This document shows positions 1-287 of a stretch of 44,478 nt of DNA, in pieces; the first letter of the stretch is position 1, and every line of letters starts with the position of its first letter. The DNA is from Lysobacterales bacterium. GTDB lineage: Bacteria; Pseudomonadota; Gammaproteobacteria; Xanthomonadales; Marinicellaceae. The translations under genes and the position numbers were made by a program. The stretch is taken from NCBI GenBank assembly GCA_026982315.1, contig JALSHI010000062.1, forward strand, positions 1 to 44,478. Direction: 5' to 3'. Under the pieces are notes generated by a model, which made no database searches, was not told the origin of the DNA, and saw only the letters and a program-made list of their open reading frames with translations.

Positions 1-110
1 CACCACACTTGCCTTCGGCTTTTTTGCCACCGCACTTGCCTTCACCACACTTGCCTTCGGCTTTTTTACCGCCGCACTTGCCTTCACCACACTTGCCTTC
101 GGCCTTCTTC
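1..110 (-). repeat. 42-bp tandem repeat inside hvfA
   Basis: The block beginning CACCACACTTGCC recurs at positions 1, 43 and 85, an exact 42-bp period. Each unit encodes the 14-residue AEGKCGEGKCGGKK with two cysteines. The copy next to the start is slightly divergent, and the array continues past the window edge, so the full copy number is unknown. Confidence 0.9.
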
Positions 111-259
111 ATGGCGCCTTGTTTATAGCCAGAGTCCATGTCATGCTGGCTGAAAGGGTTGCTGGAACAACTGGCTACAGTGGTAAAGCCAACCGTGGCA
201 ACTAAAGTGCCAATGGCAGCGGTTAAGGGTTTGATGTGGGTTTTATTTTTGTTTGACAT
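1..259 (-). CDS. hvfA: HvfA-type oxazolone/thioamide RiPP precursor, 3' part outside window
   Basis: The first 86 codons are visible and the frame stays open through base 1, so the gene continues out of the window. Residues 1-30 form a signal-peptide-like segment (basic start, then an Ala/Thr/Val-rich core). It is followed by the motif NPFSQHDMDSGY and then by repeats of AEGKCGEGKCGGKK from residue 53. The NPF...SGY spacer followed by EGKCG repeats is the hallmark of HvfA-family precursors. In that family HvfB (DUF692) and HvfC convert the repeat cysteines into oxazolone/thioamide groups that bind copper. Partner genes would lie to the left of the window and are not seen. Odd point: VASC at residues 28-31 fits a lipobox, so the product may be lipid-anchored instead of soluble in the periplasm. 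A GGAGGA Shine-Dalgarno lies just upstream of the ATG. The family call is fairly secure; modification is inferred. Confidence 0.82.
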   Translation of the reverse strand, partial: MSNKNKTHIKPLTAAIGTLVATVGFTTVASCSSNPFSQHDMDSGYKQGAMKKAEGKCGEGKCGGKKAEGKCGEGKCGGKKAEGKCG

Positions 260-287
260 GTTTCGTCCTCCGCGGATTGTTTTTGTC

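Follow-up and report, generated by a model that had tools for sequence, protein, structure and literature searches.

The stretch of DNA analyzed here, the window, is one of the 70 contigs (C62; 44,478 nucleotides, JALSHI010000062.1) of a Lysobacterales genome of 2.24 Mb that is 99% complete. In the open reading frame analysis of the window, a minus-strand ATG at position 259 opens MSNKNKTHIKPLTAAIGTLVATVGFTTVASCSSNPFSQHDMDSGYKQGAMKKAEGKCGEGKCGGKKAEGKCGEGKCGGKKAEGKCG, and the frame is stop-free to base 2 (86 residues). The features at this contig edge, together with those on a second contig, C32, are as follows.

2..259, minus strand: 5′ part of an hvfA-type precursor gene, 86 codons, its frame running off the contig edge
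2..103, minus strand: AEGKCGEGKCGGKK repeat array, which resumes on contig C32
125..160, minus strand: NPF...SGY spacer, residues 34-45 (NPF at 34-36, SGY at 43-45), from alignments A1 and A3
167..178, minus strand: lipobox V28-A29-S30-C31, with Cys31 as the proposed lipidation site; same residues in the same-genus locus L029
170..259, minus strand: putative signal peptide, residues 1-30, from the sequence and a codon comparison of two species
266..271, minus strand: ribosome-binding sequence GGAGGA, read by eye; it also precedes hvfA in L029
436..1797, minus strand: 2-oxoacid dehydrogenase E2 gene, identity read from sequence
L002:188-1036, after the array stop on C32: hvfB (MNIO/DUF692), 419.4 bits (NCBIfam cut-off 360)
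L002:1026-1829, on C32: hvfC (DUF2063/RRE partner), 266.1 bits (NCBIfam cut-off 142)
L002:1887-2549, on C32: hvfX (DoxX protein), 132 bits (NCBIfam cut-off 80)

The precursor scored 43.1 bits against NF050137, the HvfA family repeat domain (cut-off 19.5), indicative of repeated EGKCG motifs. Against the strict HvfA equivalog model NF050188, the truncated gene reached 30 bits, below the cut-off of 95, and we therefore file the precursor in the wider HvfA/EGKCG family rather than as a strict HvfA equivalog. None of the Pfam families matched the hvfA part. The NPF...SGY spacer is shared with lipobox-free relatives in alignments A1 and A3. A sigma-70 scan of positions 1-600 returned two minus-strand matches and one plus-strand match to the consensus (mean of 0.4 in shuffled sequences), which we regard as weak promoter evidence.

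The array consists of 42-bp units in tandem, which match at 96% in the window and at 99% at the start of C32, and the assembly probably broke within it because of this likeness at the DNA level. C32 starts inside the same array and continues as a single open frame to a stop codon after ...GEGKCGGKH, and hvfB, hvfC, and hvfX come directly after the array. Across the whole genome, hvfA DNA matches two sites only, the ends of C62 and C32 (E <= 0.001). Joining the two contigs by overlap was ruled out, as just 9 exact bases are common to their ends, and for the same reason no array length is claimed for the window gene. The link between C62 and C32 was drawn instead from the array DNA match and from synteny in L029. 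An isolated hvfA gene was likewise ruled out, the operon being split over the two contigs. Searching the genome with PF05114 gave one MNIO gene, at C32:215-997, and the solved structure best matching HvfB is 3bww, a DUF692 protein.

The linkage is supported by a second genome of the genus (G002; locus L029, the same sequence as JALWKC010000072.1 of a Lysobacterales MAG), in which the E2 gene, hvfA, hvfB, and hvfC lie in this order on a single contig, with hvfX further along. The position of the operon is anchored by the E2 gene, which adjoins hvfA both in the window and in the same-genus genome. The complete hvfA of that genome encodes 166 residues. A scan of named genomes with the two-row alignment A2 returned a single locus, L035, which matches L029 exactly over its first 2643 bases. 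The third genome of the genus (G001, L247) gave no hvfA or hvfB match. It does have hvfX, as well as an hvfC that is cut short where the stretch ends, and hvfA and hvfB may be absent because they fall in an assembly gap. The hvfA gene was thus seen in two genomes of the genus. Array units are 96-99% alike in the present genome (window:1-103, L002:1-155) versus 87% in L029, which suggests, from sequence comparison, a recent expansion or homogenization of the array in this genome.

These results bear out most of the initial annotation. It had described an HvfA-type precursor with an NPF...SGY spacer and repeats, which lies over the NF050137 cut-off with these elements at the positions claimed, and an array cut at the window edge, where the frame is indeed open to base 2 and the contig ends within the 42-bp repeat. 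The predicted partner genes hvfB and hvfC were found on C32 together with hvfX, all above their NCBIfam cut-offs. The absence of a downstream DUF692 gene had been named as evidence against that reading; the DUF692 gene hvfB is present after the array on C32.

We defined a canonical lipobox as [LVI][ASTVI][GAS]C preceded by a charged n-region and an uncharged core. The window precursor fits this pattern where its putative Sec signal peptide ends, and the box is kept in two species. The stretch VASCSSNPF is identical in the window protein and in L029. At the codon level, residues 28-36 show 6 identical codons, 3 silent changes, and 0 replacements, and linker residues 37-53 show 8, 5, and 4, respectively; for residues 1-27, the counts are 14, 10, and 2, with an insertion at residue 4 left out. 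All of these numbers are small. The hydrophobic core of the signal peptide is weak, with a best 12-mer of 1.95 on the Kyte-Doolittle scale, below the 2.7-3.0 of the five lipobox EGKCG genes in genus g4 described below. The mature protein would start with CSSN, as do Lpp and Pal, and lspA, lgt, and lolB were found in the genome, each above its cut-off.

The rarity of the box was gauged in a census of precursors drawn from searches of the own genome and its relatives (61 genomes, 51 with a match), the order (299 genomes, 180 with a match), and the class (369 genomes, 115 with a match). The loci used were those returned with the searches plus 120 further stretches chosen from the listed matches. 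They gave 196 distinct open reading frames with script-guessed starts, from which one fragment and one frame with masked bases were dropped to leave 194; some of the rows kept are doubtful (e.g., L198), and family labels were given manually. A canonical lipobox occurs in 7 of the 194 EGKCG-type precursors (7/29 in the own taxonomic family and 0/165 outside it), a proportion that cannot be extended to bacteria at large because the loci were a chosen subset of the matches and two of the searches used profile A3, which contained the window's own sequence. Being confined to these seven, the lipobox is no frequent side effect of the signal peptides in this family of precursors. Among the sampled precursors of NPF type, only the two of the window's genus carry a canonical box. 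In genus g3, the signal region of HvfA (L005, L011, L018, and L027) ends in GALMSGTDNPF or similar, and neither a lipobox nor an obvious AxA cleavage site was seen there.

The reliability of the pattern was assessed on nine 49-kb stretches of Escherichia coli K-12, using annotated starts and matching to the tables by eye. The pattern fitted 21 annotated genes. Thirteen of them are annotated as lipoproteins (lpp, rcsF, ybaY, acrA, yajG, pal, lpoB, yfeY, nlpI, slp, ecnA, ecnB, and bsmA), and six more encode proteins that we take to be lipoproteins (metQ, cyoA, bamC, mdtE, blc, and ycfL). The two non-lipoprotein fits, ydiK and ybgE, have LWIV and MFWD after the cysteine, unlike the SSNP of the window protein. 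Four of the 17 annotated lipoproteins were missed (nlpE, lpoA, dolP, and yjeI). Three observations thus support the proposal of the initial annotation that VASC at residues 28-31 is a lipobox: conservation of the box in two species, the K-12 pattern control, and the finding of lgt, lspA, and lolB in the genome.

What the sequences show directly is the gene, its operon, the lipobox, its conservation across two species, and the genes for the enzymes. We consider it very likely that the window gene encodes the precursor of a lipid-anchored RiPP of the oxazolin/captophorin type, which would be modified by HvfB/HvfC, tethered to a membrane, and able to bind copper. An ordinary periplasmic oxazolin, cut by signal peptidase I near the TVA/SC or the VAS/CS junction and keeping Cys31 as a free or oxidized thiol, is the unlikely alternative that deserves the most attention. 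Both TVA and VAS fit the -3,-1 rule, which we count on the side of signal peptidase I, and the weak hydrophobic core and the lack of a canonical lipobox in 187 of the 194 sampled precursors point the same way. Seven further precursors, all outside the family, have a cysteine at residues 15-39 with no canonical box around it (e.g., L159, ALACSSAVAADNPF); a cysteine in this region therefore need not mark a site of lipidation. Against cleavage by signal peptidase I, however, the box with Cys31 is the same in both species, whereas the linker has changed, the canonical box among NPF-type precursors is peculiar to this genus, and the pattern proved specific in the K-12 control.

Two other readings carry far less weight. 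Cys31 sits in the precursor of a cysteine-modifying enzyme and might for that reason be unlipidated and serve as an extra metal-binding or modified cysteine, but it lies outside any EGKCG-like motif, in the lipobox that closes the signal peptide; moreover, the N-terminal cysteine of the related peptide NedA is reported to be lipidated, and the mass change of NedA fits its three EGKCG motifs (PMC12636315). We regard this role for Cys31 as very improbable. Equally hard to credit is that the contig end is a break or chimera of the assembly and holds no functional hvfA: although the contig does end within the array, the array resumes on C32 with a stop codon and the operon, and the complete arrangement lies on one contig in the same-genus genome.

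For the lipid-anchored product that we favor, HvfB (the MNIO) and HvfC would recognize the precursor in the cytoplasm, probably via the signal peptide, and would oxidize the array cysteines there, probably to 5-thiooxazoles. The precursor would next be exported by Sec, after which Lgt would put diacylglycerol on Cys31 and LspA would then cut before this residue. Lol would carry the lipidated polymer onward, probably to the outer membrane, since the residue at +2 is a serine, which is of the outer-membrane type in E. coli. The end product would be a membrane-tethered, copper-binding polymer. We infer the modification, lipidation, location, and copper binding of the window product from the families to which these genes belong.

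A different arrangement was found in genus g4 of the same family, in which EGKCG repeats were matched in 8 of 11 genomes at loci that include the following.

L251:2850-4851: EGKCG locus of G005
L252:2748-4093: EGKCG locus of G009
L258:7316-8208: EGKCG locus of G007
L259:3643-4278: EGKCG locus of G015
L101/L034: EGKCG locus of G019

A lipobox EGKCG gene with a clear box (TSC or TAC) is present in five of the eight array genomes (G005, G007, G013, G015, and G019), with best 12-mers of 2.7-3.0 (Kyte-Doolittle), and it follows a lipobox-free EGKCG gene in G005, G007, and G013. G009 has only a lipobox-free EGKCG gene, and the array is cut at a contig edge in G011 and G021. In G015, the first EGKCG gene (L099, around 775) has internal stops, and the lipobox gene next to it has an open frame with 13 KCG motifs. 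HvfX scored above its cut-off in 6 of the 11 genomes: its gene adjoins the array in G005, G009, and G021, lies on a contig other than that of the array in G011 and G019, and occurs with no array match at all in G017; the search found none in G007, G013, or G015. MNIO (PF05114) and DUF2063 (PF09836) were each matched in 1 of the 11 genomes, in both cases G021, where the MNIO is 33% identical to the HvfB of the window genome and follows a short open reading frame free of KCG motifs. Four of the MNIO-free array genomes are 98-100% complete (G005, G007, G009, and G015), and the others range down to 74%.

The lipobox genes, open in five g4 genomes, argue for a function of the arrays; the interrupted gene in G015 and the scattered occurrence of hvfX argue for decay of the system. 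Tentatively, and with more doubt than confidence, we suggest that the EGKCG polymer may have become lipid-anchored twice in the family, in hvfA itself in the window's genus (g1) and in a second gene of g4 with a different N-terminus, and that g4 may have lost HvfB/HvfC and kept the arrays, the lipoprotein form, and, in some genomes, hvfX. If so, a tethered thiol polymer would work in g4 without 5-thiooxazoles, and the role of tethering would be separable from that of modification. The g3 HvfA proteins without a lipobox and the g4 EGKCG lipoproteins without an MNIO match form a comparison set for tethering versus cysteine modification.

The closest published counterpart is NedA of Neisseria dentiae, an MNIO-modified EGKCG peptide that was isolated in triacylated form from E. 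coli (Chen et al. 2025, PMC12636315). According to that report, triacylated NedA was found at -12 Da, consistent with -4 Da for each of its three EGKCG motifs; such lipidated MNIO products were named DAG-RiPPs, RiPP-lipoprotein hybrids, and the system lipo-NedABC. The same source describes SPII signals in some of the bufferins and oxazolins and concludes that the modification reaction is rapid enough to compete with export via the lipoprotein pathway. NedA resembles the window precursor in its SPII-type signal, its EGKCG motifs, and its MNIO with a partner protein. It differs in having three such motifs where the window precursor, from a different bacterium, has a longer array of 42-bp repeats. 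The novelty that the initial annotation had seen in a membrane-tethered, Cys-modified polymer must therefore be given up, as lipidated NedA has already been demonstrated (PMC12636315).

The HvfA/oxazolin of Haemophilus influenzae (PMC13419390) shares with the window gene a signal peptide, AEGKCGEGKCG motifs, and an hvf operon with B, C, and X, and it is reported to be better modified with its signal sequence than without. Unlike the product proposed here, it is described as having a cleaved secretion signal and being released to the periplasm or beyond, and the main text of that paper does not use the words "lipoprotein" or "lipobox". Fontiphorin, gonophorin, and oxazolin, grouped as captophorins in a preprint (PMC12668002), likewise combine EGKCG repeats with an MNIO, there with a PME1 partner and 5-thiooxazoles; its main text contains neither "lipoprotein" nor "signal peptide". 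The preprint assigns the modified cysteine of oxazolin as a 5-thiooxazole and not an oxazolone-thioamide, and 5-thiooxazoles at -4 Da each are reported in relatives by both sources (PMC12668002, PMC13419390). The Buf2 bufferins (PMC12452194) are also MNIO-associated copper peptides, ∼16% of them with predicted lipoprotein signal peptides, but they form a different precursor family that is not defined by EGKCG repeats. With NedA, the SPII subset of oxazolins, and the lipoprotein signals of Buf2 published, the window gene is not new in kind. What it adds to the Neisseria case is a naturally occurring oxazolin that probably carries a lipid anchor, whose array is long and whose hvfABCX operon is complete.
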